A stretch of 64,000 bases of DNA from Antedon bifida (taxonomy: Eukaryota; Echinodermata; Crinoidea; Comatulida; Antedonidae). The position numbers were made by a program, and so were the translations under genes. The stretch's first letter is position 1, and every line of letters starts with the position of its first letter. The stretch covers positions 20,808,417 to 20,872,416 of the forward strand of contig OY727101.1 in assembly GCA_963402885.1 (NCBI GenBank), written 5' to 3'. The notes under the pieces were generated by a model. It was not told where the DNA came from and made no database searches. It saw nothing but the letters and a program-made list of their open reading frames with translations. Shown piece after piece: positions 8,864 through 49,960 of the stretch.

Positions 8864-10171
8864 CTGCCGTGATCTATCAATATAGGTACGCGGTTGTCTG
8901 GCGGTGTCCTTTGTACGAATCGTTCGTGCCCAGCTCACTGTATGAGGACGATACACGCGTCATATTACATCCAGGGATTTCAGGTGAAAATCGGCAATTC
9001 ATTTGCAACTCTTAGAAATGTACAGACACGTATCGCTCGACGTACGCTCATACAGCGAAGAAGGTATCAAGTTATTCACGAACGAGTTTACGAATTTTTA
9101 ATTTACGAATAACCTTCTATTCCGTGGAGCACGTATTTGGAGGATTTTCAGAGATGAGGGTGAGGTATTGGGCATGTCGGGGATGGGGGTTCGCAGTCGG
9201 TTAAGTGGGAAGGGGGGCTTTGTTCGCAAAAAAAAAACCTGGCTACGGGCCTGGGCTGCTCTCTGGTGTTAGGATTTGTCTGCTAGGGTGGTGTTTAATA
9301 GGAGCCATCTAAATCAGCTATCAACTTATATTAGACCTATGATTAGATTTAAAAAATGACAGTCATACCTGAACAGGTAGAAAACGGCAAAACGGCCAAT
9401 ATCACGAGGATTTGAAAGATGAACATCTTTTTACACAATTCTGTATAAACGCTAAACTGTGTCTGGTTAATGTTAATATTATAATGCTGTAGTTATTGTT
9501 TACTTTTATATCGCACCTGATTTTATTCTTACAGTGTGATTGGTCAATTACGCATCACGTGTCATTTAGCTTTTTGAAACATTTTGATAATTGTTGCGAC
9601 TTTTTTGACTGATCGCATTATTGCTCGCCGTCTATAACGGTTATTATTTAAAGTGTTTATTTGTAGACCTACTGTGCACTACCGTATCTATATCGATCAG
9701 ATTGGTAGTGTTATAGTTTAATAGGTTTTGTAATACTCGCTGCACTTGGTTACGCCAGTAGTTCAGTACATAAGATGTAGAATTAAAATAAAAACTATGC
9801 TATATTTATTTATATATTCTGGTGTCTTAAACTTGCTGTTACTTCTTTCCGAGATTAAAGCTTGGCACATATTTCGAGCAACTGAAAAAAAGAATAAACA
9901 TTTTACTGTGCTTCCAGATCTTCCGAAAGCTACAAGTTGGTTTGATTCGACAAAGATTCGAATAAGATTATGTAATTTTGAATACTTTTTTTTCATTTAT
10001 TTCATTGAATTATGACTTTTAAGTCGTTTGTATACGAACTGTAGGCTATTATACAAAAATAATAAATTTAAAAATAATAAAAATTAAATTCAGTGAAATA
10101 CAAAACAACCAACCAACCTAAGAGAGCAGTAAACCTCTGTACAGTTCATTCCAAGTTTTATATAATTTAGA
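8864..10171. other. Intergenic DNA, no gene recognised
   Basis: I found no conserved exon. The stretch 8890-9110 is less AT-rich and has a short plus-strand open frame without recognisable similarity. The rest is ordinary AT-rich sequence. Confidence 0.4.
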
Positions 10172-10401: not shown

Positions 10402-10639
10402 TAATATATTCTATTGGAATTGTACAATGCCTAGGTTGTTTGAGAGCAATGCGTAAACCATTAGTTATTCTAACACATTCTAAAGGAGTCATAACCCTTC
10501 ACTACATTGTAACTTTAATACTATACATTATATTATTCAGTATTAGTTTACTATTACTTACGTCTTCAAGTGTAAATGTCAGAGATTTCTCATTTGTTCC
10601 ACCGAGCTTTTCAAATTTTCCTGCATAATAAAAATATGG

Positions 10640-14578: not shown

Positions 14579-17500
14579 CTAGAATTGGTAGCAAAATTTA
14601 TCTCCCATTGCTCTGTCATTGTTTAGTTGATCTTTGAATGCATTTATGTTTTCTGCTTGTACTGTAGTGTGGTATAGATTGTTCCATGTGTTGACGATTC
14701 TACTTGAAAAGGAGTGGCTTCTGATTTTCAGTCGGGCTCTTGGCTTTCTTAATTTGAATTTATGGCCCCTTGTTCTACTGTCCTCTCTAAAATCAAAAAA
14801 GATTTCGGCTTCAATATCATCTAAGCCCTTGATAATTTTAAACACTTGTATAATGTCCGCTCTTCTTCTTCTGTAATTCAGTGTAGGTAGTCCAAGCTCT
14901 TTTAATCTCTGATCGTAAGATTTATCTTGTAACTTTTTGACAATTTTAGTGGCCCTACGCTGCACTCTTTCAAGCTTATCCAAATCACCTTTTAGGAGAG
15001 GGTACCATATACAGCTTGCGTATTCCAGATGAGGTCGAATTATACTTTTATAAAGGGGCAGGAACATATCCTTATCCATGTAAGCAAAAGATCGCCTTAC
15101 CAGTCCAATGAGTCTATTTGCTTTATTTACAGCTTCATTCGTTTGTAGTGAAAATTTTAAAGACTGATCAAAAGTGACTCCAAGGTCCTTTTCAGTATTG
15201 GCATTTGGCAGATCCTCGTCACCTTCCTCTGTTGGCATAGTGAATTGCATTTGTGGATTTGAATTTCCATAATGTATTACTTTACATTTTTTGATGTTGA
15301 ATTTCAGCTGCCATCTTTTAGACCAATCGGATAATGCCTTGAGATCATTTTGAACAGTATCATTTCTGTTTTCATGCACTACATTAAACATCTTAGTGTC
15401 ATCTGCAAACATCCATACTTTAGATTTAACTGCATCAGGTAGGTCGTTTATGTAAATTATAAATAATAAAGGGCCTAATACGCTGCCTTGAGGGACTCCA
15501 CTTTTAACCGTAGACCATTCAGAAAATGCTGCGGCCACTCTAACTCTTTGTCTCCTCCCTGTCAAAAATTGATGTATCCATCTCAGTAGGTTTCCTTTTA
15601 TTCCGTACGCTTCCAATTTTGTTATTAATCTCTGGTGGGGGATAGAATCGAACGCCTTACTGAAATCCAAATATACAGCATCAAAGTTTTCTCCTGCATC
15701 CAGCAATTTTGTCCATTCTTCCATCACCTCCAGCAATTGTGTGACGCAAGATCTACCTTTCCGAAACCCATGCTGTGCTTTTATAATAAGGTTTCTATCA
15801 TTTAAAAACTGTATAATTTTGTCTCTCACAATTGATTCCAAAAGTTTACATATGACAGATGTCAAACTTACTGGCCTGTAGTTTCCAACCTCCGTCTTGT
15901 CCCCTTTCTTAAAAATTGGTACTACATTGGCACATTTCCAGCACTCCGGTAACTGTCCAGTCGATAGTGATTTGTTGTATATTGATGTCAATGGAGTTGC
16001 AACAATTTCTTTAAGTTCCTTCAGTACTCTTGGATGCACGTCGTCTGGTCCAGCTGATTTATTTGAGTTAATCTGCTGAAGGCATGAAAGCACTTCCTCC
16101 TTTGTCACTTCAATTGAATCCAAATGGTCATCCACGTCAACTCTTGGTGTAACTTCTGGCAATGACTCGAGGTCTTCATTTGTGAATACACTTGTGAAAA
16201 ATGCGTTGAAAATTTCAGCTTTATGCTGATTGTCATCAGCCATATTACCCTTTCCATCCTTCACCAATCCAATAGATTGAGATGTTTTGGTTTTCTCTCT
16301 TACATATTTCCAGAAACTTTTAGGATTAGTTTTTACTTCATTGCATATTTTCCGCTCAAGTGCAATCTTTGCTGCCCTTTTTTCACCTGTTACTATATTT
16401 CTTGCCTTTTTGTAACTGTCATAATCTTTCTGTTGTCTAGACCTTGTAAACTTTTTCCATGCATTGTGTTTCATTTTAATTTTCCTCTGAACGTCACCAG
16501 TCATCCAGATAGGTTTATTTTCTTTTTTTATGTTTGACTTGGGAATACAGATCTGAACAGCATTTCTTATTGATTGATTTAAAGCTTCACAGGCCTCTTC
16601 AACATTTGTATTTTCAAATTGGTAGTCCACCTCAGTAATCAATTCTTTCATTTTAATATAGTCACCCTTGTTGAAATTTAGCTTGTATTCCATTTTCTCT
16701 TGTATTTTAGTTACACAGTCATATGAAAACAAGATTGTTACGTGGTCGCTTTTTCCTAATGGTGGACCTATCTCAATATCACTTATTTTGGTTTCATCCA
16801 TGGTGATTACTAAGTCGAGTATGTTAGGTGTTTGACCATCTCGAAATCGTGTTGGTTGCTGTATACACTGGCATAGAAAATTATCTCTAAGGCATTCTAT
16901 AAACCGATTACTTTTATGTGTTTCATTTTTATTAGTACTCCAAGAAATCCAATCAATTTCAGGAAAATTGAAATCTCCTAACATGATTAAATCAGAAATA
17001 CCATTTAGTTCACTTGCTTTGTCGATAGCAGATAGTAACGCTTGATTATTTTCGTCAATACTGTTAGGACTTCTGTAAATACATCCGCATAATAGTTGTT
17101 GCCTTTTATTTGTTTCAATTTTGATCCATAGTGCTTCCACAAAATTTAAATTCAGTAACTCGTTACAGATACTGGCATTCAGCTCTTCCTTCGCAAAAAT
17201 AACCACACCTCTACCACTTCTGCCAGAATCAAATTTTGTATATCCCTTGATGCTTAACTCAACTTCCAATATGTCTGTACAAGTTTTGTTATTTACTTCT
17301 GTTATTGCAACCACATCAGGTTTCCTTTGATTTGTGACATCACGTAACTCACCTATTTTATTTCTCAGGGCATCTGCATTTGTGTAAAGAAATTTCAACG
17401 ACTTCTCATAAAAATCAACAATGTCATCGTTTCTTAAACTAGATTTATTCTGCTTTAATCCTTCTATAAAAGCTTTAAATTTTTTCTTGTCCTCTGTACA

Positions 17501-17626
17501 TTTTTTTCTTCTTATAAATTTTTGTTTCACTTTTCTTTCTAAGTTAAAATAATTTTCTTCCAAACAAAAAGATTCTGTATTCGAAAATTCTTTATGCTGA
17601 TGAACTAGGGCCTCGAAAACGATCAA
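14579..17626 (-). CDS. LINE ORF2: endonuclease-reverse transcriptase
   Basis: This intact 1,015-codon frame drives target-primed reverse transcription of the LINE. The apurinic-type endonuclease spans roughly residues 75-300, with FLYTNADALRNKIGEL, ITEV (Glu at 110), GDFNFPEIDW (Asp at about 218) and SDH (293-295). The reverse transcriptase spans about 560-760, with NYRPVSLTSV, LDFSKAFDSIPH, SGVPQGSVLGPLLF and the catalytic FADD at 740-743. A C-terminal region follows with YKSIIRPHLEYASCIW. The layout matches CR1-group elements. No in-frame ATG precedes the endonuclease: the frame opens with TTG at 17626, in the +1 frame relative to ORF1. Translation therefore probably depends on reinitiation or frameshifting from ORF1. 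It overlaps ORF1 by about 35 bp. Confidence 0.92.
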   Translation of the reverse strand: MIVFEALVHQHKEFSNTESFCLEENYFNLERKVKQKFIRRKKCTEDKKKFKAFIEGLKQNKSSLRNDDIVDFYEKSLKFLYTNADALRNKIGELRDVTNQRKPDVVAITEVNNKTCTDILEVELSIKGYTKFDSGRSGRGVVIFAKEELNASICNELLNLNFVEALWIKIETNKRQQLLCGCIYRSPNSIDENNQALLSAIDKASELNGISDLIMLGDFNFPEIDWISWSTNKNETHKSNRFIECLRDNFLCQCIQQPTRFRDGQTPNILDLVITMDETKISDIEIGPPLGKSDHVTILFSYDCVTKIQEKMEYKLNFNKGDYIKMKELITEVDYQFENTNVEEACEALNQSIRNAVQICIPKSNIKKENKPIWMTGDVQRKIKMKHNAWKKFTRSRQQKDYDSYKKARNIVTGEKRAAKIALERKICNEVKTNPKSFWKYVREKTKTSQSIGLVKDGKGNMADDNQHKAEIFNAFFTSVFTNEDLESLPEVTPRVDVDDHLDSIEVTKEEVLSCLQQINSNKSAGPDDVHPRVLKELKEIVATPLTSIYNKSLSTGQLPECWKCANVVPIFKKGDKTEVGNYRPVSLTSVICKLLESIVRDKIIQFLNDRNLIIKAQHGFRKGRSCVTQLLEVMEEWTKLLDAGENFDAVYLDFSKAFDSIPHQRLITKLEAYGIKGNLLRWIHQFLTGRRQRVRVAAAFSEWSTVKSGVPQGSVLGPLLFIIYINDLPDAVKSKVWMFADDTKMFNVVHENRNDTVQNDLKALSDWSKRWQLKFNIKKCKVIHYGNSNPQMQFTMPTEEGDEDLPNANTEKDLGVTFDQSLKFSLQTNEAVNKANRLIGLVRRSFAYMDKDMFLPLYKSIIRPHLEYASCIWYPLLKGDLDKLERVQRRATKIVKKLQDKSYDQRLKELGLPTLNYRRRRADIIQVFKIIKGLDDIEAEIFFDFREDSRTRGHKFKLRKPRARLKIRSHSFSSRIVNTWNNLYHTTVQAENINAFKDQLNNDRAMGDKFCYQF

Positions 17627-18371
17627 ACGCCAGTTCGCTATCCCGCTTCACAATTTTACCTCTTCTTATAACAAGATCAATCTCACCGTTATCTTTCCTT
17701 GTTCTTAGTTCCTGTCTTAATTCATAGTTCATTTGCCTCTCTTTTTTTGATCTATCAGGATTAATATAAATGTTCTTTAGAAATGCGTGATCCGTGCTTC
17801 TAAGTTTTTTTGCATTTACCATCACTTCCCTTTTACTTTTCAGGCTATCCAAAGAAACTCTTACCATTCTACACCCGTCTTCCGTGTATTTCCCAAGCCT
17901 GATCACTTCTGTTATTTCAACTCCCTCTATCTCCAGACACTCTTTGAATAATTTTTCAATAGCAACCCTGTCTTCCTTCAGTCTCTGTTGAGAACTTTGG
18001 TTATCAGATTCAGGTAGATTTTCAATCACAATATTTAATTTACGAGATTCTCTATCTCTATATTCTTCAATGCCTTCCTGAACACTCTCCTTAATTTTCC
18101 CATCCATTTGATCATAGCTCTCTTTTAATTCTATCAAATTATTTCTTGTGTCGACCTGGATTTTTTCAATGACTTCAATGTTTTTATTGGTTATTGATGC
18201 TCTAAGCGCCTGATCTTTTTGCGTTTTTTCCATAATATTTAATCTCACATTCATATTTTCCTGCAATTCATTTATCTCCGCAATTTTCTTCAACAAAGGT
18301 AACTGCACAAGGCATGTATCACATGACCATAAAAAATTCTTTATTTCGCTGTCAGAGAGGAGAGCATACAT
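17592..18371 (-). CDS. LINE ORF1 protein, N-terminally truncated
   Basis: This 259-residue frame begins next to the 5' truncation point. Residues 5-20 (LSDSEIKNFLWSCDTC) look like the last zinc-binding half of a PHD finger, as found in ORF1 of several CR1-group elements; the first half is gone. Residues 30-100 form a charged, probably coiled-coil region. From about 105 the protein resembles the nucleic-acid-binding half of CR1-group ORF1 proteins (KLNIVIENLPE, then VIRLGK and basic KNIYINPDRSKKER). ORF1 proteins bind element RNA. The end overlaps ORF2 by about 35 bp in another frame. The native start codon is not present. Confidence 0.75.
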   Translation of the reverse strand: MYALLSDSEIKNFLWSCDTCLVQLPLLKKIAEINELQENMNVRLNIMEKTQKDQALRASITNKNIEVIEKIQVDTRNNLIELKESYDQMDGKIKESVQEGIEEYRDRESRKLNIVIENLPESDNQSSQQRLKEDRVAIEKLFKECLEIEGVEITEVIRLGKYTEDGCRMVRVSLDSLKSKREVMVNAKKLRSTDHAFLKNIYINPDRSKKERQMNYELRQELRTRKDNGEIDLVIRRGKIVKRDSELAFDRFRGPSSSA

Positions 18372-18477
18372 TTTATTTGAGAGTTTATATGGTATACTCT
18401 TTCAAAAAAACCCAACAAAAATTTTCTTATACTTTTTTCCCGCAAATGTGTATATTAACTGTTCTGCACCCAGGCTA

Positions 18478-20725: not shown

Positions 20726-22285
20726 CTACTTACTGATAACGTAGCGAATCTTTGAAACCATTAGGAAAAATTCGTCGTATGTTATCTTATTATCACTGCC
20801 AACGTACCGGCTCACTAGGTGCTGCAGTACAGCGTCACTGGTTTTAAGACCTGAAACAGAATCCGTTGAATAGTTTAAAAAATGGTTCTTCGTTTGCATT
20901 TAATAAACTGTAAATATTGCATACTATTTAAATATATATGTACGTTCAAGAGTGCCGCTTTTAAAAAGAGGCGTGTGCTTAAAATAAATGTTATATACAA
21001 TTATTAGTCATGTCGTACGAAAGGCATATCAAAGTCTTAATGAATGGTTGTATCCAATTAGAGGTTGAGGACTCGGTGATGAAGTGACGGGACGGGAGTT
21101 TAAAAAACCCGCGCTCCTACCCCCTGGTCACTACCGTAGATACCTGCTCGTGACAATGCATCTCGTAACTCGCTCACATCAAGAGTTTTGCTTTCGTCCT
21201 TATCAGCTCGAAGAAACATCATCTGAAATCAGAAACAAAGTCTCAACATTTAGACGATTCGCTAGCCATAATCACGTAGGCCTAAGGTCTGAGTCGAAGC
21301 TAAGTTCGAAAGGATGTAGCCATTTAAACTTGCCAACTTTGTATTGGTAATGTTTTACAACAAAATGGAGTTGAGTCAAATCCGTCTCATGTGCCACTTT
21401 TATTATTTTCTTTATTATTTATTACTTTATTAAAATGAATATGATATTTGACTTGGCAAAATAAAATGTTGTCAATTATCTACTTGCTTTGTTTTCCTGT
21501 TTATTTGTACGAGAACGTTCATGCTTTTTAAGTTATTGTCCTGTATAATTGTGGACGTTAATAGGTATCACACCTATCAAGAAAATTGATATATTGGTAA
21601 ATTATTATACAGGTATTGAAATCTCCAGTTACCCGTATCTTAGCCGAAATATTAAATAGACCGCCCTCTGTCGCTCTACATTTTGCCATGTGTTGTATTT
21701 CGCTGTATCTATTATTATTATATTATGTATTGGTACTTACATCACAGTAAAATGACCATGCTCCAATAGCAATGCCTTCATTGACAGAAAGTTTCCGAGA
21801 ATCGTCTTCCTATAGTTTTAAGCTTAAGGAATTTAGACAAAAAACTTAAGCCTAAGTCGCCATCATCCGCTTGACCGCGAGCCATAAATTGTGAACGCGG
21901 TATAAATGTTCTGTTTAATATAGAATAATTTTTATTGACATGACCAGAAACATACAGGAAGGGTAGCATACACTTTTTGCCGCTCTCAATGTTATTTATT
22001 TCTAGAGACAATAATGCCTGTATAGGCCTACTCTTGTCTTTGGATGATACGTTAACTCGTAAAATATGTTGACCTTTTTGACGATAGAGCATGAATTTAT
22101 TCTCATATGATGATGGTAGACGATGATGGTGCCTACATTGAGCCTGATCCGTGTTTTTGGAAAACTTTTTTTAAAACAAAAGGATACGTCAAACAGTGAG
22201 GCAATAGCTGCCGACGTCTCATGTGATATGTCAGAAGGAATGATATCTATAAAAAAAAATAATATTTTTTATTACATTACAAATA

Positions 22286-22317
<32 letters not shown>

Positions 22318-25300
22318 CTAGACAGATGCTCATTAGAAACTGTCGAATATAATTATCCTAAATATGACTTTACTTTAAATGTTGCAAAATACACAGTAAC
22401 GAATTTATTGTGGTGGCGTACTAACACATATAACATACTTTCTCTTTTCCAACGTACAAAGAAGTTATCCAGTTCTGAGTTGTCCATCAACCCGTCCTGT
22501 AAGATGTAATTGAGACTGTTTACGACTGGAATGCATTATACTGCATGAACACAGCATCTTCATACCATTTATCAAATTGGCTAACATTTGCGTATCATTT
22601 TTTTATAATGTCTATCTTACAACTTTAATAAATCATACTTGTTTTGTGGAACCCTTTCTCTGCTCCCAAGATGTAATGCTTTGTAAATGTTTATATTTTA
22701 TATAACAATAAATCAATTTAAAGCCAGAGTTAATGGATCTAAAGCAAATTAATATTCCTTATGCCACTACTGACTTACCTCTCCAGCATATTCTTCAAAT
22801 ACTGATTGAATGATTTCAACCATCATTGGGTCAAGCGTTTTATTCTAGAATAAAGAACAACATTGTATGTATATAATTACGATCTAATAATAGCCACAAT
22901 GCTGCTGCTGTGATTGGTGGGTTGCTCTTCTTGTGTTTTATTTTTTTTCTGTTTATTTGTCTGAATACAGGGTTCTCTGGGAGAACAGTCTTTAACTTAA
23001 GAGGTCCCCAGTAAAAATAAGAAATACATAAAAGAAAAATAAAGACATGTATTCACGGATGTTACTGTTTTGAATAATATTATGACCAATGCATTTGGCC
23101 GTTTTGTAAACCTGATGTGTATTCTTAAATTGAAGTGGAGTTGTGGCTTGGTGGTTATGATGCTTGGCTACCACTCTAAGGGTCCTGGGTTCAAGTCCCG
23201 TCACATGTCAGGATTTTTTCTAAGGACCAAATTACTCCACTCCCAAAGACTTTGTTTATGTAGAGCATCTTGTGTATATGTTTGTCTTGTGAACCTCTGA
23301 GGGTCCCTAATGATCAGCAATAGCTGGATGGATCACCCTCATTAAATATGGTATGGTGTGATGTGTCCAAATATGATTATATCCATTTATGTGCACATTA
23401 ATTTTTGTCACATAAAGTTTGATAGTGTAGACAAAGCTTAACACAAAAGCCACATATACTTTTTAGAATACACCTACCTCTGATAAGGTTGGAGTGTAAA
23501 ACGATGTGCTGTTTGCCGATCTAAAAATGTATGAATACTCAAATCAAGCTAGATTTTTTCGAGGATTTCGTTATATAAATGCATTTACGGATATAGAAAC
23601 TATCAAAATAATGTACATAACTGTGAACTATTTCTAGTAGATATGCAAAAAATGAAAATCTACGAAAGATTATGCATTTAATCTGCAGACCATTTGTAGA
23701 GTATTACAAATTACATTGATGTTTTAGTTAACAATGAATACAATACTGTATACTTACTTGGTCTTTGAAAAAGCTCTGCAAAAGAAACGCAAAAGGAACG
23801 GAAATTCTTTGTCCTTTTCAAACGTTGAAGGAATGATGACGTAATTACCCGGACCAAGATCCATGAACAGAGCAGCTTCTCGTATTCCTAGTTTGTGTTC
23901 AAATGAATGTAGTGGTTTGTTTGTTTGAATGAACTCCATATCCACTGGACATCCATCTTCTGTCTGTGAGTTAAAAACTATTATTGTAGCTAATATTAAA
24001 GAGGGTACAACAACAGAATATCACGAAGGAAAAAAATAAGAAGATGTATAAAAAAAAATGGAAAAGAATGAATGAATAAAGGTGTTAACCACGATTTGTA
24101 ACTATTTGTATTTTTGGCTGGGCTAGAAACATCATTTAGTTGTATTGCGTGTTCAAGTCATTATAATCGTACACAGAGCCATAAATGATTCTCATTTACA
24201 ATTTCACTGCGCATTTAATCTGAATAATGCTTTCTGTAGCGCTTTGACCACATTTGGCGGAGAAATGACTACAAGTATTTAATGTTCATCTGAAACATGC
24301 TCCAGCTGAAACAGTACAATTCCGGTCAGCCAATTCCATTGATCTAATTTTGGATTTCCATTAACTAAACCTAAAGGTAGCCTATCTATGTAGTAATAAG
24401 GATCTCAATGGAAATAAGATAATACGCTTTTTGGGATATCCTGGAAAATATGTTATCATTGTGTTTATTTGATATGTCAGTAATTTATGTTATCACTTTG
24501 TATGTATTTTTATGATGATTTCCTAATAAATACAAATCAAATCATGTCGGTAATGTCAAAACAATGAATGAATCTTAATCAAAATGCTGTGTCACGATCA
24601 AATTAATTCGTGAATCATTAAAACTAAATTTTAACTATTTTTTAGACAATTTAGAAAAAATTACTTTGTACACATCAAACCCGAGATTAGAGTCTTCCCA
24701 CCAGGATTCTTCTCTGTCTTTGCCAACTGCCATCAGAGAGACAACCACCAAATCACCATTATTGTCAACTTGTATGTTGTACTGGGGGTTCTTGTGGAAA
24801 TCTAAGGAAAGAGAGTGCAGTAGTATCATTAACATAACAGGTGCTTGTTATACACTTGGTGCACATGAAACACATGCAGGGCACTTCAGTGGCAGTTTGA
24901 AGAACTCGCCTGTTTCTAGAAGATAACAATCGTAGTTTCGTTTTAGTTTCCATTTTATAATGGTTTAGAATTTTAGATTGTAAATTGAGACGAATTTAAG
25001 AAGATGTGATTTCCGGCTAGAGAGTGAGTCAACTGCTAATTGTAGGCCTACGGTTGGATGTAATTGCACACACAGGAAGCGAGCCCCCGAGTAATTGCAC
25101 TGTTTGATGAAGATGTAATTGCACAAAGGAAGTGAGTTTCATGGTAATTGTACTGTTTGATAAAGATGCAATACCACACCACAATTAAGTGAGTCCGTGC
25201 GTAATTGTTGGATGAAAATGTAATTGCACACAAGTAATCATCGAGTAATAGCCAACTATGAGATTGCAGAGAGGTGAATCCGTGGGTCATTTTAGTCTAC

Positions 25301-28300
25301 TGCTGGAGGAAGATGTGATTGCACACAAGTAATCATCGGGTAATAGCCAACTATGAGATTACAGAGAGGTGAATCCGTGGGTCATTTTAGTCTACTGCTG
25401 GAGGGAGATGTGATTGCACACAAGTAATCATCGGGTAATAGCCAACTATGAGATTACAGAGAGGTGAATCCGTGGGTCATTTTAGTCTACTGCTGGAGGG
25501 AGATGTGATTGCACACAAGTAATCATCGGGTAATAGCCAACTATGAGATTACAGAGAGGTGAATCCGTGGGTCATTTTAGTCTACTGCTGGAGGGAGATG
25601 TGATTGCACACAAGTAATCATCGGGTAATAGCCAACTATGAGATTACAGAGAGGTGAATCCGTGGGTCATTTTAGTCTACTGCTGGAGGGAGATGTGATT
25701 GCACACAAGTAATCATCGGGTAATAGCCAACTATGAGATTACAGAGAGGTGAATCCGTGGGTCATTTTAGTCTACTGCTGGAGGGAGATGTGATTGCAGA
25801 GAGGTGAGTCTCTTTCTAATTTTTCTACCAACTCTTTGATATTGTATCTTTTTATTTGTTGCCTACTTTCTTTATTATTTTCATAACGTCCCATAGCAGT
25901 TGAACCTCTTTGCCATTTATTCAAATGTTCAGTCACGTGCCATTTTACATCTTTATCAGACAGCTCTGGCGGTATGTGAAGAATTCGCAGCTCGTTGAAT
26001 CTGTGCAGGATGTCTTTGAGATCCATCCTTAAATAAATGAAGCAAATGAATTTTTTAATGCGCTGTTAAAATATTGGGGATGAGGTCAATAGTCATGATC
26101 GCATGCGTCTAAATTTTATTTCTCAGTCGGCACGGTTAGTGCCATAGACAATAATTGGTTTCAATGCTATTGCGTGTGCCCGGTACGTGCGACAAATCCA
26201 CTATCTTGTTTTCTATTCGTTTGCCAATACAAAGCATTACATAGACGCACGGTCAACCGTGCCGATGGATAATGATATAACACGGTCGATAGTCTCTTCC
26301 TAGTTTAGCTTCGGTTGACTATAGTGGCTCACTTACCAGAAATCACCATCGACCTCACTTTTTATACCAAACTTTTTCTTGGTATCTTCATCCAAAGATT
26401 TCATTTCTTCTGACCTAAGATGTTAATGTAAATTGTTACGTTGTAATATGATTTTTTTCGTTCATAAACAAAATAATTAATAAAATTAATTTTACCTGAC
26501 GTGATTGTATGAAGATAACTCGTAACGAGAAATAGTTTTCAAATATGCCGTTTATATCTTACGTAACAAGTTACAGTACGGTACAACGATTTTTTTCATT
26601 TCAGAACATTTATTTCTCTTTTCTCTTCAAAAGGGACTAAAAAGAGATTTTCAAATTATGCAAACATCCATAGGTGTGTATGTAGTATAAGTAGGCCTAT
26701 CTTGAGAGCAATATATGTCTTACTTGTCACCCCATGGTCCAGTCCATTCACAGCGTTCTGTGCTTAGAATTCTGATGATACTTGCAGAGGTCATTTTATC
26801 ATTGTTGTCATACGTTACCTAAAGGTTCACAATAAGATAAGAAAAGAAACGATTTTTGGCTCAATAATATACAACTAATAAATAAATTATGACTACAAAA
26901 AAACAATTTCATGCGGTGAAAGATGAAATTATTTTGATACATTGAACGAATATAAAGCATCTATTATTTGTTTATAACAGACCATTAAAAATAAGACAGC
27001 GTTCACATTTTTGACGTGAAATAAAACAATTAGGCCTATATAGGCACTTACAACTCCAAAGCCATATATAATTGATCGAACGTGATCAGTCAAAAACAGC
27101 CTGTGAAAATGAACGCGCAAAACGAAATGCAGTACTCGCATAATAATATAACGAAATCGCACCCTCGATGACGAAATTAGGAGGTAAATAGAATATTATT
27201 ATTCATCTTTACATCAAATTAAAATGTTCGATACGTTCTTATTGCATCATTATATTGCTGCGTTTTATGATCGAAAAAACACAACAGAAACACATCAAAC
27301 AAACATCTAGGTAGGTTTAAATAAAACGTTATTTGAAATCATTGAAGTTACCAAATCTGGTAATACAAAGTTGAGTTAAATGAAGAATTAGCATATATCG
27401 TATTAAAAAGACGTGTAAAGGTTAATAAAAAGTTAATGTAGATTATAAACCCACGTGTTTTACACTTCCAGATAGAATGTACAGGCTCTGTAGTTGAAGA
27501 CCGCACAAATCAAGATTCTCGTAATTTAAAAGGCCGGTCACAAGTGATCCAGTTTTTCTCCACATCATCAACTTAGAACGAAGTATAGCCTCTGTGAAGT
27601 CAGACATATCTACTCTCTCAACAGTACCACCAGATAGATCAATCAAAGCTTCAGGGATATCAAATGTACAATCCATCGCCTCGTAACGTAATAAAAGCCT
27701 TTATTATACAAAAAAAAAATTGTTTTTAATAGGATGGATAGTCAGCAGTGTCTTTTTCACTCGAGCTACTGTGCGTTCTAATCAGCTCTCATTTGAGAGG
27801 TTTTCAAAGTGCTGGAGAATGGAGCAGTGACAATGGTTTTCCTGCGTTATCTTCAGTTTCCCTTTGTTGGTGTAAACTATTTGTATTAATAATAATAATA
27901 ATAATAATAAATAACATTTATAAAGCGCAAGAGACAAAGGTTTCAAAGCGCTGTGTTTTCCAAGATCTGTGCAAGTAGTAGCGTGTGATTATGCTTCTCT
28001 GAAGAGATGAGTTTTGAGTTTAGTTTTAAATGTGATTACAGATTTTGATGAGCGTATTTCGAGGGGTAGAGTGTTCCAGAGTTTTGGGGCTGCGACAGCG
28101 AAAGCACGATCACCGTAAAACCGAGTTCTGGAACGGGGTCCAGGTTTTAGAAGAAGTCTGCAGGATGAACGAAGCGAAGAGTTGGTTGACGGAGTAATGA
28201 TGCTATGTATTAGGTGCTATAAGACCATCATTATATTATTAGCAAACTAATATTCTGTTCCCATTAGAAAGAAACACGACCCACGTCAATGTATCACGGA

Positions 28301-30221
28301 TACAATATATCCATGGTAGACCTAGTTTCCAATAGGTTTAATTTGGATTAAGGAGTGTAAGTTGAGATGGAATTGAAGTTTTGAAGAATATGCGGCAATG
28401 ACTATAACTGTACCCTTAGGCTTCACAACGTTGTTTCTAAAATCTAAAGTCGTTACACGTTTTGATACTGCAGAAGTTGGAATATGCATTATCTTTGGTG
28501 GAGGCAGGTAAGCATGATAAAAATGATCATAAAACAGATACGATTCTTGTTAAAGTGTTTAAACATTTAGGACTTTATTATTTTAATCTCGGGTATTGTT
28601 GTGATGGTGACTTGCAGTAAAAGTGTAAAAGAACACTTACTTTGCCAATGCTTTTTCCATGAGAGGAGCCCAGAATTCATCTTTTGATTGGCAGCGACTG
28701 AACATCAGTTTACCATCCAGTGTTGGCAGTCGATCGTCAATGACAACTTCAAACCACTTTCCAAATCTCCAAAATCTGAATCTAAAGATGCCTTTGTAGT
28801 TGTCTTTGAACGACTGTTCTGGACAGACGTAGTTTATTATGGACGGAATAAGCGTCAACCCTGCCAATGCGTTCATGAATGCTGAGTTTACTGTAGGAAA
28901 CAATTTAATGGAGGATGGTGTAAATGATGGATGAGACAGTACTTAAAGATGTATTTATGATAAACGACTGTTCTTGACAAAGTTTAGTATGAACAAGCGT
29001 CAAACATGCTAATGCGTTCATAAATGACGCGTTTACTGTAGGAAACAATTTAACATAATGACATAATAATAACAGGATTTTTATAGCGCACATACCACCC
29101 AAGAGTGCTCATGATTTAAAAAATAAAAAATTACATTACATTACACATTTGATAATGGCGCTCTTAGAATGAACTATGGCATAATGACAGCGGTTGTTGT
29201 GGGGAAACAGGATAGCAGAATATCTGAATATTAATCTTTTTTATATACTCACCAAGACTTCGAACTTCTTTTACAATTACTTCATTAAACGATGCCCCAT
29301 CTTTGAAAAAGAAAGGTTTCTTGCCTCTTAAGATTTCCTATATACAATAATTTATCAATAATGTATTTGGTAGTTCTAATGGAACGTATTTTATATTTCC
29401 CTTTTAATTATATTCATATAACTAAACACTGTAGCCATGATAATTTTAAATGTATGCCCTATCTCAAAAGAGAGACTTTATATATAAAATAAAATAAAAG
29501 GAAATATTGTTGTCAAAATACGAACGAATTATTCAAAGTAACTTTTTGTGCTACAACAAGTTACTTTGATAATCCGTTCGTATTTTGACAATTGTGCTAC
29601 AAAAAGTTCCCTAATTATGTACGTATTTATTATACCGATATTTAAATAAGATAATTCAGCTTAGTTGGAGGTGGAGCGAATAATTGCTGTAAAGTACTTA
29701 CAAGATGACCCCCCCCCCCCCCCCCCTTATAAATGTTATATAATTAGTTTAGTTTATTTTCATACATTTATGGTAACCTTAACAATATTTTGCCGATTAT
29801 TTTTTAATTTAAAAGTCTCGAGAGAAATTATCAAAACAGTTGTAAGGCCCTGTCTACACCATCAAACTATATGTGATGTGTCTATATATGGACAAGATGA
29901 TGTCATAGATGTCATATTTAAGCATATAACTAATTATATATACATAAAATAATTTGGGCATATTACACTTTTTTTGTCAAACTAGTTTGATAGTGTAGAC
30001 AGAGCTTTAAACAGTCAACTTACATGTGGGCGTAGCCATCTGATGTCATTTCGCCTCTCGTAGAATGTCAACAAGGTTGTATCTTCTTTAATGAATATAG
30101 ACTCGTTACATGCCTTAAAACATGGATCTTTGAATAGGTTGTCCCTATTGTACTGACTATCTTCTATCAGATCGGCGTAGTTTTGGCCACAAATTGTGTT
30201 TATTTTGATGGACTTAGCCAT
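20726..30221 (-). CDS. Calpain-like protein lacking the catalytic triad (pseudoprotease)
   Basis: Sixteen coding exons on the minus strand: 30221-30024, 29337-29253, 28890-28641, 27698-27464, 26818-26724, 26414-26337, 26027-25867, 24801-24665, 23963-23758, 23520-23478, 22844-22779, 22496-22439, 22246-22188, 21809-21741, 21222-21144, 20850-20726. They sum to 1,944 nt (647 residues) with compatible phases throughout. The order is calpain protease core (residues about 50-315), C2-like CBSW domain (about 330-480), then a penta-EF-hand region. Family landmarks include IRWLRPHEI, FRFWRFGKWFEVVIDDRLPT, EWTGPWGD, KNPQYNI and NYVIIPSTFEKD. The GDCW motif reads VNSA (catalytic Cys to Ser97), GHAY reads QSLY (His lost, about 249) and the Asn-Pro-Trp-Gly motif is absent (about 275). 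The third EF loop, DKDESKTLDVSE, is canonical, so calcium binding is likely. The stop at 20726 also overlaps a strong donor (GTAAGT), so a further terminal exon is possible. CAPN6 is a known precedent for a calpain without its catalytic Cys. I infer a regulatory, non-proteolytic role. Confidence 0.88.
23134..23356 (+). mobile_element. tRNA-derived SINE
   Basis: The head looks like a tRNA with an A box (TGGCTTGGTGG) and a B box (GGGTTCAAGTCCC) about 40 bp apart. It is followed by a non-tRNA body and a tail with repeated ATGGT words. No acceptor-stem pairing suggests a working tRNA. It lies in an intron of the calpain-like gene, on the opposite strand. Confidence 0.75.
23360..23441. mobile_element. 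Half copy of the TCTACACTATCAAACT MITE
   Basis: It matches the right half of the palindromic MITE family whose better copies are at 29843-30010 and 53743-53889, ending in AAGTTTGATAGTGTAGACAA. It lies next to the SINE in a calpain intron. Confidence 0.7.
25048..25810. repeat. 95-bp minisatellite in a calpain intron
   Basis: From 25271 a 95-bp unit beginning GAGGTGAATCCGTGGGTCAT repeats at 25271, 25366, 25461, 25556, 25651 and 25746, with almost no differences between inner units. Before it, 25048-25270 holds older, diverged units sharing GATGTAATTGCACA. The array ends about 55 bp from the splice donor of exon 7 at 25867. Confidence 0.95.
27880..28205. repeat. Dispersed repeat in calpain intron 3
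   Basis: An ATA/AAT trinucleotide run is followed by ATTTATAAAGCGCAAGAGACA and a GC-richer segment with GTTCCAGAGTTTTGGGGCTG and AAAGCACGATCACCG. I recall this composition from interspersed repeats of many aquatic animals. No coding function is evident. Confidence 0.55.
28940..29052 (-). pseudogene. Decayed duplicate of calpain exon 3
   Basis: This segment repeats the end of the intron (AAATTGTTTCCTACAG) and the first third of exon 3. It would read VNASFMNALACLTL where the working exon reads VNSAFMNALAGLTL. Later homology breaks down, and the FRFWRFGKWFE region is missing. It still has a good acceptor, but no exon-like 3' end or donor is evident. Like the real exon it already lacks the Gly-Asp-Cys-Trp motif, so the duplication came after the catalytic residue was lost. 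Confidence 0.75.
29843..30010. mobile_element. Palindromic MITE (TCTACAC(T/C)ATCAAACT ends)
   Basis: The ends are inverted: GCCCTGTCTACACCATCAAACT on the left as GCCCTGTCTACACC plus ATCAAACT, and AGTTTGATAGTGTAGACAGA on the right. The middle holds further inverted words (GATGTCATA). It sits in calpain intron 1, immediately before the donor of exon 1. It belongs to a family with at least six copies or fragments in this window. Confidence 0.8.
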
Positions 30222-30400: not shown

Positions 30401-32130
30401 TATCATAAGCAGTAACTTCTATATGTAACCAATATACCGTAAGAAAAGACATATCGGAATTTAATTATGGAATAACAATAGTACTGCATATTATATCATT
30501 AGCGGCAGTTTAAGGAGATTATTCTAAGGCTAGTAATTTTCTATAACGCTACCATTTTTGTGTGTACTGTAAATTTACATTTATTTTTATTACAAAATAA
30601 AAAGGTTTTCAATTTAACACATGCATTTAATTGTTATGTATTATTTTATGCTCTCTGAATACGCTGTTATGGCAATAATATTAAATTTTTTACCTTCGTT
30701 CGTTAAAAAATGTACTGATAGTAATTGTTAGTCCCATCAGAAACCAGCTTGCAATTTCATTACATACAACATTATTGAAAAAAATGTTCAAAAATATTCT
30801 GTAAAATTACGTCATAGTTGGGCAAATGTCTTGCTTAACAATCTACAATTATGTTTATCCAATTCATAACTTGTATTTATACATTTTGTAAACTTGAACT
30901 CCAGCCTAGTGAATCACATGTATAATTATCTTTCTAAGTGAGAGAATGAGGTAGAGTTTACTCTATAAAAGTATGTGTCATGTATGTTTGAAGATGTAGG
31001 CCTAAAGTGTGGGACTTGTAACAACGAGGCAAGGTAACTGGTCCCAAGATAGGATGTCAAAGAAGGATGAGTCTTGGAGTCTATTGGTGGTACCTACGAC
31101 GAAAGAAGAAACAAGATGTTTGATACCCGTGATATCTAATCTTAATGTGATCTCTCCTTATTATTTTGGGCAAGACTAATTCCAGATTTAAGTAGTCGTC
31201 CTACCATTGTTTTAAATGCTGTCTTGTGTTTTTTTTTATGAACTGAAATAAGAATTCTGTTCCGTACCCGTATGTGATGCATGAAGATAAATGTAATTTT
31301 TCGCTTGAATTATCGAATTGGTTTGATCGAAATTGTTATTGATTAAATTGAAAGAACGCTCATCATTTTTACCACCTCAGTTACCACAAAGGACTGCCTG
31401 AGTAATATCATAGAAAAATATATAATATCTCTATGGTAATATCGATTTAAATATTAACAAAATATTGATCTAATTCTAGTAAGAAAAATGAATATTTAAG
31501 TGAAACCTTTTTAAATATTATAAAATCTTGGTTTGTTTGTTATTATTTTTGTGTCTTAAATATATAATGCAGGTTATTATGTTCCAAATCATGAACAGAC
31601 GGACGGAGCGAGAGGGTAAGCTGATACGAAATGTTCCGTGATGGTGAGCACTCCTCTCTGCAATTGACTTTTACAACAAAACTACCGTCATTTCTTTTAT
31701 TTGGATGAGACAGTCTCCATACATAACCTACGGAGACGGCCGAATACATTGTTTATTCACAATGTTGAGAGCGCTGAGCCCTGATCGTCGTAGGCCTACC
31801 TTCGCCTCGCGCCGAAACGTACTATGCAATTTTGTTGTAAATTATCATAATTGTTTCAAAACCTTAATATTAATATCTATTTGGTATGCCTACCATTTTG
31901 AACAATAAACTCTCTATTTTTAAACAGGAAGCCTAATGCTTGATTATTATGATTATTTTATAAATTCTTTCTTTTAATGTTTTTCTATAAATGTGTATAC
32001 ACTGTATTATTTGTATAATTATTATATTATATTGCATTACCTATCACGAACTTTTGGAAGAACACCTTTATTTATGGTGAACGAGCTTTATATTTTGTAC
32101 TATTGTATATATATTTTCGTGAATAAATAA
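30401..32130. other. Intergenic DNA between calpain-like gene and LINE
   Basis: AT-rich, no exon recognised. The last part (about 32050-32135) ends AATAAATAAAGATTTTGATTGAT, resembling the 3' end of a short retrotransposed fragment. Confidence 0.4.
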
Positions 32131-32135
32131 AGATT

Positions 32136-34250
32136 TTGATTGATATGGACAAAATTATAAAACATTACACTTTATTTGTAACAGAAACAGAGTACTGTAT
32201 TATTATAATATTGCATATTTCAGGTAGGCATTATAAGCTTAATAATATTAGTGATATATGGGAAAGTATTTCTAGTAATATCAAGTTTGCAATTTCAAAA
32301 TCTGTACCAACTAGGAAATGTAAAAAATCGAAATCTTTTCCCTGGATAACTCCAGAAATCAAAAAGCTTTGCACAAAGAAAAGAAAGTTGTACAAAATTG
32401 CTAAACAAGTAGGAACTGAAGAAAGCATAAATAAATTCAAATCTTGTAGCAGGGAATTAAAAAAGTCAATATATTGTAGCCATCGGGATTATGTTGTAAA
32501 TATTTCAAACAAAGCTACAACTGATATAAAACAATTCTGGGCGTATATAAGGTCTATAAAAAATGACTCAGATGTTATTAGCTTTAAGATAAATAACACA
32601 ATGGTATCTGATGCTAAGGTGTTGGCTAATCTTTTCAATACACAATTTGTAAACAACTTTTGCATAGATAATGATCAGCATTGTGATTTGGATACAATAG
32701 ATTGTCTTACCAACTTTGAATGTGAACCCTTTGTGATGCCTGAGGTATTTTATGCCCTCTCACAGTTAAATGTATCCAAATCACCAGGACCTGATTGTCT
32801 GCTTCCAATATTCTTAAAGTCATGTAAGGCACAATTGGCTAATGTTTTATGTACATTCTTTAATTTAACTGTACAAAAAGGTATTTTACCAAAACAATGG
32901 AAGGATGCAAATGTTGTACCTATTTTCAAAAGAAATGGAAAACCCAAAGACGAAATGAAAAGCTATCGTCCAGTGTCTTTAACTCCCATAATTTGTAAGA
33001 TTATTGAGAAATTGCTTTGCTATCGCTTAAGGGAATATCTAGAATATAATAATATCCTTTCAGAAAATCAGTTTGGGTTTAGACAAATGTATAGTACTGA
33101 ACTTTTACTTTCAAAGGTTTTTCATTCATGGGCACAGAGCTTAGAACTTAAAGGTTGTAAAAATATTGATATTATTTTTCTTGATTTTTCGTCTGCATTT
33201 GATAAGGTGTCTCATAAAAGATTAATTAAGAAACTTAATAACTGTGGCATTGGTGGAAACACTAATGCATGGATTACAGATTTTCTTTCAAATAGACGCC
33301 AAAGGGTTATTTACAGAGGAGAAAAGTCAGAGTGGGTAAATGTTACTTCAGGGGTACCACAAGGGTCAGTTTTGGGCCCTCTTTTATTTTTGATTTATGT
33401 AAGTGATATTGTAAATAATATTTCTTCTTCACTTTTTCAATTTGCTGATGATCACACATTATCACGTCCTATTTATAACAATAATGATTGTAAATTGCTT
33501 CAAAAGGATTTAGATTTAATTGCTAAATGGGCAAATGTAAACAAACTTCCCTTAAATCCTGTCAAATGCGCCGTAATGCATGTTACAAGATGTAAAGAGA
33601 TAGTTAACTGGGATTATACCATAGAATCAGACAATATTCCTAAAGTTACAGAATTCAAATTTCTAGGTGTTTATGTAAATAGTTCGTTGTCTTGTCATAC
33701 ACAAGTTAATTATATATGTTGTAAAGCAAGCAGATTGCTTGGTTTCATTTCAAAATGTAGTAAAAATATGTCCTGGTTAGCTATGTTGAACTTATACAAA
33801 GCTCTATTACTTCCAGTGGTTACCTACTGTTGTTCAATGTGGGCACCATTTGAGAAATCATATATTAATAGAATAGAAAGTATACAAAGGAAAGCAACAA
33901 GGATAATAATGTTTAGAAAGGAAGGTTCCTGGGACACATCTTATTTTCATAGGTTGAAAGTGCTTGAATTATTATCTATTGATGACTTGTTTAAATTAAA
34001 TAGACTTTCATTAGGATTTAAGGTGTTGAAAGGTTACTGTCCCCATTCTTTCAATGAGTATATTAAAACTAGTGAAAGATGTCCGGGTAGGCTTTTACGT
34101 TGGAATTCGAAAGGCAATACTTTTCATAATTCTGTTTTTGTTTCCTTTCCTAGACTATGGGAGCAAATACCAAATGACATAAAAGATTCACAAACAATTT
34201 CAATATTTAAGGCTGCTCTAACAAAACACTATATTTCATGTTATGTATAA
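32136..34250 (+). CDS. LINE reverse transcriptase fragment
   Basis: This 704-codon frame is open to its stop. The first 30 or so residues are probably flanking DNA. From about residue 35 it follows the endonuclease-RT linker (SFPWITPEIKKLCTKKRKLY). The reverse transcriptase follows, with ANVVPIFKRNGKP, SYRPVSLTPIICKIIE, FLDFSSAFDKVSH, SGVPQGSVLGPLLF (405-418) and catalytic FADD (436-439). A C-terminal region with YKALLLPVVTYCCSMWAPF comes last. The catalytic Asp pair is present. Without endonuclease or ORF1 the copy cannot transpose on its own. The sequence differs clearly from the LINE at 14.5-18.4 kb, so it is another family. Confidence 0.9.
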   Translation: MIDMDKIIKHYTLFVTETEYCIIIILHISGRHYKLNNISDIWESISSNIKFAISKSVPTRKCKKSKSFPWITPEIKKLCTKKRKLYKIAKQVGTEESINKFKSCSRELKKSIYCSHRDYVVNISNKATTDIKQFWAYIRSIKNDSDVISFKINNTMVSDAKVLANLFNTQFVNNFCIDNDQHCDLDTIDCLTNFECEPFVMPEVFYALSQLNVSKSPGPDCLLPIFLKSCKAQLANVLCTFFNLTVQKGILPKQWKDANVVPIFKRNGKPKDEMKSYRPVSLTPIICKIIEKLLCYRLREYLEYNNILSENQFGFRQMYSTELLLSKVFHSWAQSLELKGCKNIDIIFLDFSSAFDKVSHKRLIKKLNNCGIGGNTNAWITDFLSNRRQRVIYRGEKSEWVNVTSGVPQGSVLGPLLFLIYVSDIVNNISSSLFQFADDHTLSRPIYNNNDCKLLQKDLDLIAKWANVNKLPLNPVKCAVMHVTRCKEIVNWDYTIESDNIPKVTEFKFLGVYVNSSLSCHTQVNYICCKASRLLGFISKCSKNMSWLAMLNLYKALLLPVVTYCCSMWAPFEKSYINRIESIQRKATRIIMFRKEGSWDTSYFHRLKVLELLSIDDLFKLNRLSLGFKVLKGYCPHSFNEYIKTSERCPGRLLRWNSKGNTFHNSVFVSFPRLWEQIPNDIKDSQTISIFKAALTKHYISCYV

Positions 34251-34390: not shown

Positions 34391-35097
34391 GTAAACGTAA
34401 CTAGGCTTATTTACACCGTGACGTACACAACAACAACTGCGCATGTTGAAAGCATTGTTGTTGTTGTTTGATGAGGGAAAGAGGAAGTAGAAAAATGCCG
34501 TTTCAAAACAAGGCTTAAGTAGCTAGGTACTTAAGGTAAATCTTTATTACTTTGTAATTTTTCCGTACTTGCATACTTTAAAATTAAGAACCAAAGCCAG
34601 GCCTAGGTTTAGGCATTTAAGTAGGCCTAGGCACCCGTTACGTAACACTGTTATAGCCAAGCAAAACCGAACTGAAAAAGAGTGGTCTGGTGGGGGTTTT
34701 CCCCATTTCATGATTTACAGCTAGGCCTAGTTAGAATGGCTACTAGCTTAGCTAGGCATACAGTACAGTAGGTCCAGTTAGAGTCACTTTACGTACACCG
34801 TACGGCTAGAGGCCTAGCCCTACTAGGACTAGGTGGTCTATGGTCTATACTATGAATGTATTAAATTGTCTCAGGGCATGCCTATATGATGTATGTTAAC
34901 TGCAAGAAGAAAGAAGTTTCAACAAAGGCTAAGCATATTTAAATTTGTAAAGAATATTAATTGTCCTACAGTAGGCCTATTATTTATATACAGACATGCC
35001 CGTCTAAACATTTTTTTAGTCAATATCATTTTTAACAACACATATAAATTGCCAGTTTTGTTTCATTTCAGTTACTAAATTTGATGCATTTGTTGCT
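34391..35097 (+). promoter_or_regulatory. ABCC10: ABCC10 promoter and 5' UTR region
   Basis: A non-coding first exon probably ends at 34535 (TTAAG before GTAAAT). The 5' UTR then resumes at 35072 after TTTCATTTCAG. Candidate elements near the probable start are TGACGTAC (34421), TGCGCATG (NRF1-like half site, about 34438) and GAGGAAGTAG (ETS-like, about 34480); there is no obvious TATA box. The transcription start is inferred, not seen. Confidence 0.45.

Positions 35098-35110
<13 letters not shown>
35084..35110 (+). CDS. Short uORF overlapping the ABCC10 start codon
   Basis: ATG at 35084 opens an 8-codon frame (MHLLLWQY) that terminates with TAG at 35108-35110, overlapping the main ATG at 35098 in another frame. 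It lies in the same 5' UTR exon. Overlapping uORFs commonly reduce main-frame initiation; whether this one is translated is unknown. Confidence 0.4.
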
Positions 35111-45557
<10,447 letters not shown>

Positions 45558-48700: not shown

Positions 48701-49960
48701 TGTGCTATAGTAAGGGATTTTTTCGAAAAATGGCGAAAATATCAAGTTTTTAAAATTCAATTTTTATGCGATAATATTGCTGTATATGATCATACAACAT
48801 CTTATAGTGCCATAGAAACCATTCATGTCGAAAAATAAAAGGGTTGAAAATTGGCCATTTTTGGAAAAAATCCCTGTACTATAGTAAGGGATTTTTTCGA
48901 AAAATGGCCAAAATATCAAGTTTTTAAAATTCAATTTTTATGCGATAATATTGCTGTATATGATCATACAACATCTTATAGTGCCATAGAAACCATTTAT
49001 GTCGAAAAATAAAAGGGTCGAAAATTGGCAATTTTTGGAAAAAATCCCTGTACTATAGTAAGGGATTTTTTCGAAAATTAGCCAAATTATCAAGTTTTTA
49101 AAATTCAATTTTTATGCGATAATATTGCTGTATATGATCATACAACATCTTATAGTGCCATAGAAACCATTTATGTCGAAAAATAAAGGGGTCGAAAATT
49201 GGTCATTTTTGGAAAAAATCCCTGTACTATAGTAAGGGATTTTTTCGAAAAATAGTCAAATTATCATGTTTTTAAAATTCAATTTTTATGCGATAATATT
49301 GCTGTATATGATCATACAACATCTTATAGTGCCATAGAAACCATTTATGTCGAAAAATAAAAGGGTTGAAAATTGGCCATTTTTGGAAAAAATCCCTGTA
49401 CTATAGTAAGGGATTTTTTCGAAAAATGGCGAAAATATCAAGTTTTTAAAATTCAATTTTTATGCGATAATATTGCTGTATATGATCATACAACATCTTA
49501 TAGTGCCATAAAAACCATTTATGTCGAAAAATAAAAGGGTCGAAAATTGGTCATTTTTGGAAAAAATCCCTGTACTATAGTAAGGGATTTTTTCAAAAAA
49601 TAGCCAAATTATCATGTTTTTAAAATTCAATTTTTATGCGATAATATTGCTATATATGATCATACAACATCTTATAGTGCCATAGAAACCATTTATGTCA
49701 AAAAATAAAAGGGTCGAAAATTTTCCATTTTTGGAAAAAATATCTGTACTATAGTAAGGGATTTTTAAAAAAAATGGCCAAAATATCAAGTTTTTAAAAT
49801 TCAATTTTTATTCGATAATATTTCTGTATATGATCATACAACATCTTATAGTGCCATAGAAACCATTTATGTAGAAAAATAAAAGGGTCTAAAATATTGA
49901 ATATTTTTTGAAAAATTGCCAAATTTCGACCATTTTGTATTTTGAAATAAAGACTTGCGC
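45735..49960. repeat. 174-bp satellite array, about 24 units
   Basis: The word TGTATATGATCAT recurs 24 times from about 45818 to 49824 at 173-177 bp spacing, usually 174. Inner units are nearly identical, while the first and last are diverged, a normal edge effect. Each unit holds a long inverted repeat centred on CTGTACTATAGTAAGG, with arms running through AAAAAATCCC / GGGATTTTTT into TTGGCCATTTTT / AAAAATGGCCAA. Open frames in it (46310-46654) are by-products. It separates the convergent ABCC10 and MED6 3' ends. Confidence 0.97.

Follow-up and report, generated by a model that had tools for sequence, protein, structure and literature searches.

Here we describe a calpain gene of the crinoid Antedon bifida in which all three catalytic residues have been replaced and the reading frame has stayed open. 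It lies on the minus strand of a 64,000-nucleotide stretch of contig OY727101.1 (C14 below; positions 20,808,417 to 20,872,416, that is, C14:20808417-20872416), which was analysed as a whole and is hereafter referred to as the window; coordinates are window positions unless a contig is named. This gene (hereafter the window gene) runs from 30221 to 9855 in 18 exons, all of them open and bordered by AG acceptors and GT donors throughout, with the ATG in exon 1 and the stop codon in exon 18. Its product of 676 residues comprises, in this order, a protease core, a C2-like domain and a penta-EF-hand region. We consider it likely that the protein is a maintained pseudoprotease derived from a classical calpain, which would act by binding and is probably calcium-responsive. 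The initial annotation of this DNA had correctly placed a calpain gene at 26724-28890; however, the gene extends well beyond that span, which was numbered there as exons 2-5 and corresponds to exons 3-5 of 18.

The relationship to calpains is evident over most of the protein. In Pfam, Peptidase_C2 (PF00648) matches it with 202.5 bits (cut-off 23.8) and Calpain_III (PF01067) with 78.7 bits (cut-off 21), and among PDB structures rat mu-like calpain (1qxp) matches the 648-residue product of exons 1-16 best (residues 24-641, E 8e-77), which confirms that the calpain fold signature is retained, as first noted. Residues ~512-645 of the same product match sorcin, grancalcin and PDCD6 chains together with the EF-hand region of calpain-1 and calpain-2. 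The PDB query was confined to exons 1-16; exons 17 and 18, which would supply a fifth EF-hand but have a non-canonical loop, are common to the window gene and the three further triad-less genes described below.

Replacement of the catalytic centre

The three substitutions lie in successive exons of the minus strand. In exon 3 (28641-28890), NSA replaces DCW at 28888-28880, which puts Ser at the place of the catalytic Cys (codon 28885-28883), Asn at that of the preceding Asp and Ala at that of the following Trp. In exon 4 (27455-27698), QSLYILSG stands for GHAYSVTG at 27490-27467, with Ser at the His position (codon 27487-27485). The Asn-side segment in exon 5 (26724-26818) reads STERCEWTGPW at 26764-26732, again with Ser at the catalytic position (codon 26764-26762). 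In an alignment that includes rat calpain and the triad-bearing genes L009 and L013 of the same genome, the window gene has Ser/Ser/Ser at the Cys, His and Asn positions, which upholds the first observation that the whole triad is lost. The oxyanion Gln, which is present in L009, L013 and rat calpain, is also replaced in all four triad-less genes, at a position beside an alignment gap. The intron that splits the Cys motif cuts the Gly codon in the window gene and likewise in L013 and L009, the raw sequence of which reads CAG|GTGA(T/C)TG(C/T)TGG; the intron keeps its calpain position, in agreement with the initial annotation. Phase agreement along the remaining L009 and L013 exons was partly imposed, as their modelling demanded the phases of the window gene, and is not used as evidence; these models are usable only over approximately exons 2-9, and exon 2 of L009 was chosen by eye.

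The initial annotation had allowed for an unseen exon carrying GDCW. Three-frame searching of the minus strand between 30400 and ~9700, with the motifs DCW, GHAY, GH[AGS][YF], NP[WYHF]G and C[WF][FLM][LM]A, revealed no hidden catalytic exon. In the literature, for which statements here and below refer to the passages of each paper that were covered, a change of the Cys alone silenced two calpains: Cys to Ser abolished autolysis of Aplysia CCal1 (PMC5650170), and Cys to Ala abolished the paralysis caused by Caenorhabditis elegans CLP-1 (PMC3315469). The window protein, which lacks the whole triad, is therefore very unlikely to cut. The earlier description of this protein as non-proteolytic is supported by its triad substitutions and by the outcome of the exon scan, with the absence of activity being predicted from sequence.

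Triad-less paralogues and purifying selection

Three queries were run against the 315.6-Mb assembly (27 contigs), namely the Pfam family, exon 3 and the protein encoded by exons 1-16; counts from this search are lower bounds. At least three further triad-less genes are present, all of them on C14. Measured from the start of the window gene, L010 begins ~101 kb and L011 ~220 kb away; L012 is located at 3.63 Mb. All three give a reading of 18 open exons that match those of the window gene, although exons 10 and 11 of L012 showed little similarity (scores 0 and 22, below threshold) and were positioned manually. The L010 and L011 proteins are identical (677 residues) and that of L012 has 680 residues. 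Across the window gene, L010, L011 and L012, in that order, the residues are S/A/A/G at the Cys position and S/T/T/G at the His position; all four genes have Ser at the Asn position. Triad-bearing relatives are found in the same genome: L009 (GDCW, GHAY and NPWG), L013 (GDCW, GHAY and NPYG), L015 (SDCW, GHSY and NPWG) and L014 (GNCW, GHAY and NPWG). In L016, only GNCW and NPWG motifs were seen. In a tree of seven rows, of which six are distinct, a branch with 100/100 support separates the triad-less genes, four rows in all, from the others, and 26 of 500 label shuffles were as low. A single loss of the triad before the duplications would be the simplest account; with three outgroup rows, more than one loss is also conceivable.

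Comparison of the paralogues points to constraint on the protein. Between the window gene and L010, the nonsynonymous rate (dN) is 0.150 and the synonymous rate (dS) 0.745, giving a dN/dS of 0.20 (95% bootstrap 0.15-0.25); over the protease core alone the ratio is 0.24 (0.17-0.36). Because counting dN/dS with L012 is saturated (proportion of synonymous differences, pS, 0.79-0.80), a codon likelihood was used over the four triad-less genes and returned an omega of 0.154 (MG), 0.153 (GY) and 0.181 (MGK), with a log-likelihood (lnL, MG) of -5918.8 when omega was free versus -6180.3 when it was fixed at 1. Only 4 of 2034 exon bases differ between L010 and L011, and all four differences are synonymous, whereas 55 of 2885 aligned intron bases differ after exclusion of 364 gapped columns (Fisher 4e-9 for the exon-intron contrast); had the exons diverged as fast as the introns, 30.6 nonsynonymous differences would be expected, and none was observed. 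These comparisons indicate that purifying selection keeps the protein, its former protease core included.

The genome holds further copies of parts of these genes. L018 (C14:20722100-20732000) contains a copy of the window gene that lacks the 5' part; it runs from C14:20731341 down to 20728198, covers exons 9-16 and begins 12 bases into exon 9. It differs from the window gene by a single synonymous change over 685 coding bases, whereas 129 of 2416 intron bases differ; without the badly aligned intron 10 (103 of 576 mismatched), 26 of 1840 do (Fisher 0.004). Unless gene conversion is responsible, this likeness is closer than would be expected of a dead fragment. In two other stretches, L019 (C14:20621500-20631400) lies immediately upstream of L011 and L020 (C14:20740400-20750300) immediately upstream of L010. 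The two are 92-98.5% alike over their main blocks, their exons match EF1-EF4 of the triad-less genes, and no protease-core match was found within the two stretches; they look like EF-hand-only genes.

Calcium sites and rival explanations

For the core calcium sites, columns were mapped through rat 1qxp with an assumed offset of 10 to calpain-2 numbering. Eight core calcium residues are listed for rat calpain-2 (PMC4631099), and four of these (Gly91, Glu175, Glu292 and Asp299) are retained in all four triad-less genes. In the window gene, the DGAS segment of site 1 is encoded in exon 2 (29253-29337), which also holds the altered oxyanion Gln position, and the Glu and Asp of site 2 are retained in exon 5 (codons 26749-26747 and 26728-26726; residue list from PMC4631099). 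Exon 6 (26337-26414) carries VDGDFW and an Asp in place of another Glu of site 2. In the EF-hand region, EF1 (DGLMDNSEL; exon 12, 22439-22496) is similar to calpain EF1 as judged by eye. EF2 has the canonical loop DEDDSRKLSVNE, with its helix and first loop Asp in exon 13 (22188-22246) and the remainder in exon 14 (21741-21809). EF3 has the canonical loop DKDESKTLDVSE in exon 15 (21144-21222), the one that the initial annotation had singled out and from which calcium binding may be expected. Conservation within the core was counted over three of the genes (the window gene, L010 and L012). In the Asn-side segment STERCEWTGPWGD, 12 of 13 columns do not vary, compared with 173 of 305 for the whole core; in the Cys segment, 7 of 10 do not.

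On this basis we propose that a classical calpain, with core, C2-like and EF-hand regions, lost its whole catalytic centre before the copies in this genome arose, and that the triad-less protein was kept as a pseudoprotease, the shape of which calcium would still change. It would work by binding, either by pairing its EF-hand region with a calpain or another EF-hand protein or by holding a client or cytoskeletal protein, the latter as mammalian calpain-6 reportedly does without proteolysis (PMC3731218, PMC13413365), and we give these two kinds of partner about equal weight. Binding of calcium and of partners is suggested by the constrained core, the canonical EF loops and the partly kept core calcium sites.

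A number of observations weigh against the proposal. The remaining core calcium residues have changed: Asp96 is Glu and Glu323 is Asp, both conservative, but Ile89 is Lys, and Gln319 falls beside an alignment gap and is of uncertain position, which leaves four of eight identical. The EF-hand Pfam matches of the window protein fall below the cut-off, and the EF4 (exon 16, 20734-20850) and EF5 loops are non-canonical. The acidic loop of the C2-like domain, present in L009, L013 and rat calpain, is absent from all four triad-less genes, as seen in exon 8 of the window gene (24665-24801), and part of the usual calcium switch may have gone with it. The claim that the rest of the protein is undamaged therefore holds for the reading frame but not for the protein as such, which lacks this loop and the oxyanion Gln. 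The His segment is invariant in 2 of 8 columns, below the level of the core, so that the cleft is unevenly conserved. A search of the genome for a small subunit with the rat EF-hand region gave three weak matches, on C13 and C9. Regarding selection, L010 and L011 are part of a repeated block; the pair may stem from a recent duplication or from the assembly itself. Their synonymous differences (4 observed, 8.1 expected, P 0.09) are not significantly below the intron rate, and gene conversion could have lowered their exon divergence, although it would not explain the older paralogue pairs.

Of the rival accounts, that of a slowly decaying pseudogene, in which an ordinary calpain without an active site would be drifting, is very improbable. 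The introns do hold retroelement frames and satellite and tandem repeats, and a truncated copy and an exon fragment lie nearby, but neutral drift simulated from the L010 coding sequence over half the window gene-L010 dS produced a mean of 21.7 stops (minimum 11 in 300 runs), whereas the 18 exons of the window gene have none and keep their AG and GT borders. Together with an omega of 0.15-0.20 and the L010/L011 exon-intron contrast, this sustains the earlier view of a maintained rather than a dead gene. Least credible of all is a protease that still works through a rearrangement of its catalytic centre: calpain-like proteins of brown algae and oomycetes, in which Cys and His are displaced, might be active according to their authors (PMC13413365), but here Cys, His, Asn and oxyanion Gln are all altered, and the Cys and His positions vary among sister genes.

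Two more specific versions of the pseudoprotease proposal were considered. The protein may be a regulator that, by pairing with active large subunits or with an EF-hand protein, restrains proteolysis or directs where it takes place, a version that we regard as possible but hold tentatively. It is in keeping with the EF-hand region, including the last two exons, being kept in all four triad-less genes, with the triad-bearing L009, L013, L014 and L015 in the same genome, and with the EF-hand-only-looking genes that adjoin L010 and L011; the divergence of EF5 speaks against it. Somewhat more doubtful is a scaffolding role at the cytoskeleton or for a client protein, independent of other calpains and comparable to calpain-6 at microtubules. 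The high conservation of the Asn-side segment favours it, as do the cellular roles of non-proteolytic calpain-6 (CAPN6; PMC3731218, PMC13413365), but calpain-6 is a non-classical calpain and hence not the closest architecture. A bolder extension of the pseudoprotease proposal has only an outside chance: the triad-less genes, which encode no fewer than three different proteins in this animal, would form a dedicated subfamily of classical calpains acting as a pure calcium-driven binding switch, in which the Cys and His positions are free, the Asn-side segment is fixed, the acidic loop has been removed and the EF-hand-only paralogues beside two of the genes serve as partner subunits.

Gene structure, neighbouring elements and known inactive calpains

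The other exons of the window gene complete the classical layout. Exon 1 (30024-30221) encodes domain I with the motif LFKDPCFKA, is open from the ATG to a GTAAGT donor and has counterparts in L010, L011 and L012. The C2-like domain begins in exon 7 (25867-26027) and extends through exon 9 (23758-23963), which encodes IPSTFEKDKEFPFLLRFF; exon 10 (23478-23520) forms a linker, and the EF-hand region begins in exon 11 (22779-22844). Exon 17 (10562-10620), at the EF5 position, is located ~10 kb downstream of exon 16, and exon 18 (9855-9881) encodes LLEICAKL and the stop codon. All are on the minus strand, as is a partial copy of the exon 3 acceptor and 5' part inside intron 2 (28963-29053, 91 bp). 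Its 63-nt core is 87% identical to exon 3, with gaps in a longer alignment, and it carries no GDCW.

Mobile and repeated sequences surround these exons. Intron 16 (~10 kb) holds a reverse-transcriptase frame and satellite repeats; the retroelement comprises this frame and an adjoining one (14579-18401) on the gene's own, minus strand. A second reverse-transcriptase frame is located upstream of the window gene on the plus strand (32127-34250). Directly downstream of exon 7, a 95-bp unit is repeated in tandem 6.1 times with 99% matches (25218-25798), and a 174-bp unit is repeated 23.3 times with 95% matches at 45845-49895. Plus-strand frames at 35020-41733 resemble an ABC transporter of the multidrug-resistance-protein type and may belong to one. 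Elsewhere in the assembly, contig C27 (L022) carries a frame that we take to be NADH dehydrogenase subunit 1, head to head with COX1 on opposite strands. AAA codons of this COX1 occur at positions where animals conserve Asn, and they give Asn when translated with genetic code table 9 but Lys with table 5. Echinoderms and flatworms both use table 9; together with the opposite strands of the two frames, this makes an echinoderm the more likely source.

Inactive calpains, some of them EF-hand-bearing, are already documented (PMC4631099, PMC3315469, PMC5650170), and non-peptidases account for 337 of 3795 calpain homologues (PMC4631099); the window gene is thus an addition to a known class. In domain order it is the same as the large subunits of calpain-1 and calpain-2, to which the 1qxp match also leads, but it differs from them in lacking the catalytic triad, the oxyanion Gln and the acidic C2-like loop. 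Calpain-6 is not known to have an EF-hand domain, and the window gene, with its core, C2-like and EF-hand regions, stands outside the calpain-6 group by architecture. Calpain-6 (calpamodulin) is likewise thought to be non-proteolytic, with non-enzymatic roles, and is classed as non-classical (PMC3731218). Family C of the classical calpains (bootstrap 36) is EF-hand-bearing, as is the window gene, and its Drosophila, Daphnia and Branchiostoma members are likewise said to have lost critical catalytic residues (PMC5650170). Drosophila calpain C has a replaced His and an Asn-to-Asp change and is not among the Cys-less calpains in the part of PMC4631099 covered, whereas the window gene has substitutions throughout the triad and at the oxyanion Gln. 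C. elegans CLPR-1 to CLPR-4 are also lineage-specific paralogues without a catalytic residue but, unlike the window gene, are atypical calpains described as lacking the Cys (PMC3315469).

The initial annotation had judged the loss of the whole triad with intact EF-hands to be less usual. EF-hand calpains with lost catalytic residues are known from Drosophila, Daphnia and Branchiostoma (PMC5650170), which makes that judgement only partly right; it may hold for the combination itself, since no description of the loss of all three residues with EF-hands kept was found in the literature passages covered. A literature search found no report of a triad-less calpain in an echinoderm; it did not extend to the published supplementary lists of inactive homologues, and we do not claim that such a gene is unreported. 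The window gene is less usual in combining a fully lost triad with retained EF-hands, and in its copy number.

What classical calpains do besides proteolysis is difficult to distinguish from cutting when the enzyme is active. A maintained EF-hand calpain without a catalytic centre, present beside triad-bearing calpains in the same animal, would provide a natural separation of the two. That L010 and L011 differ so much less in their exons than in their introns suggests that, despite the loss of the enzyme, the protein sequence matters to the animal.

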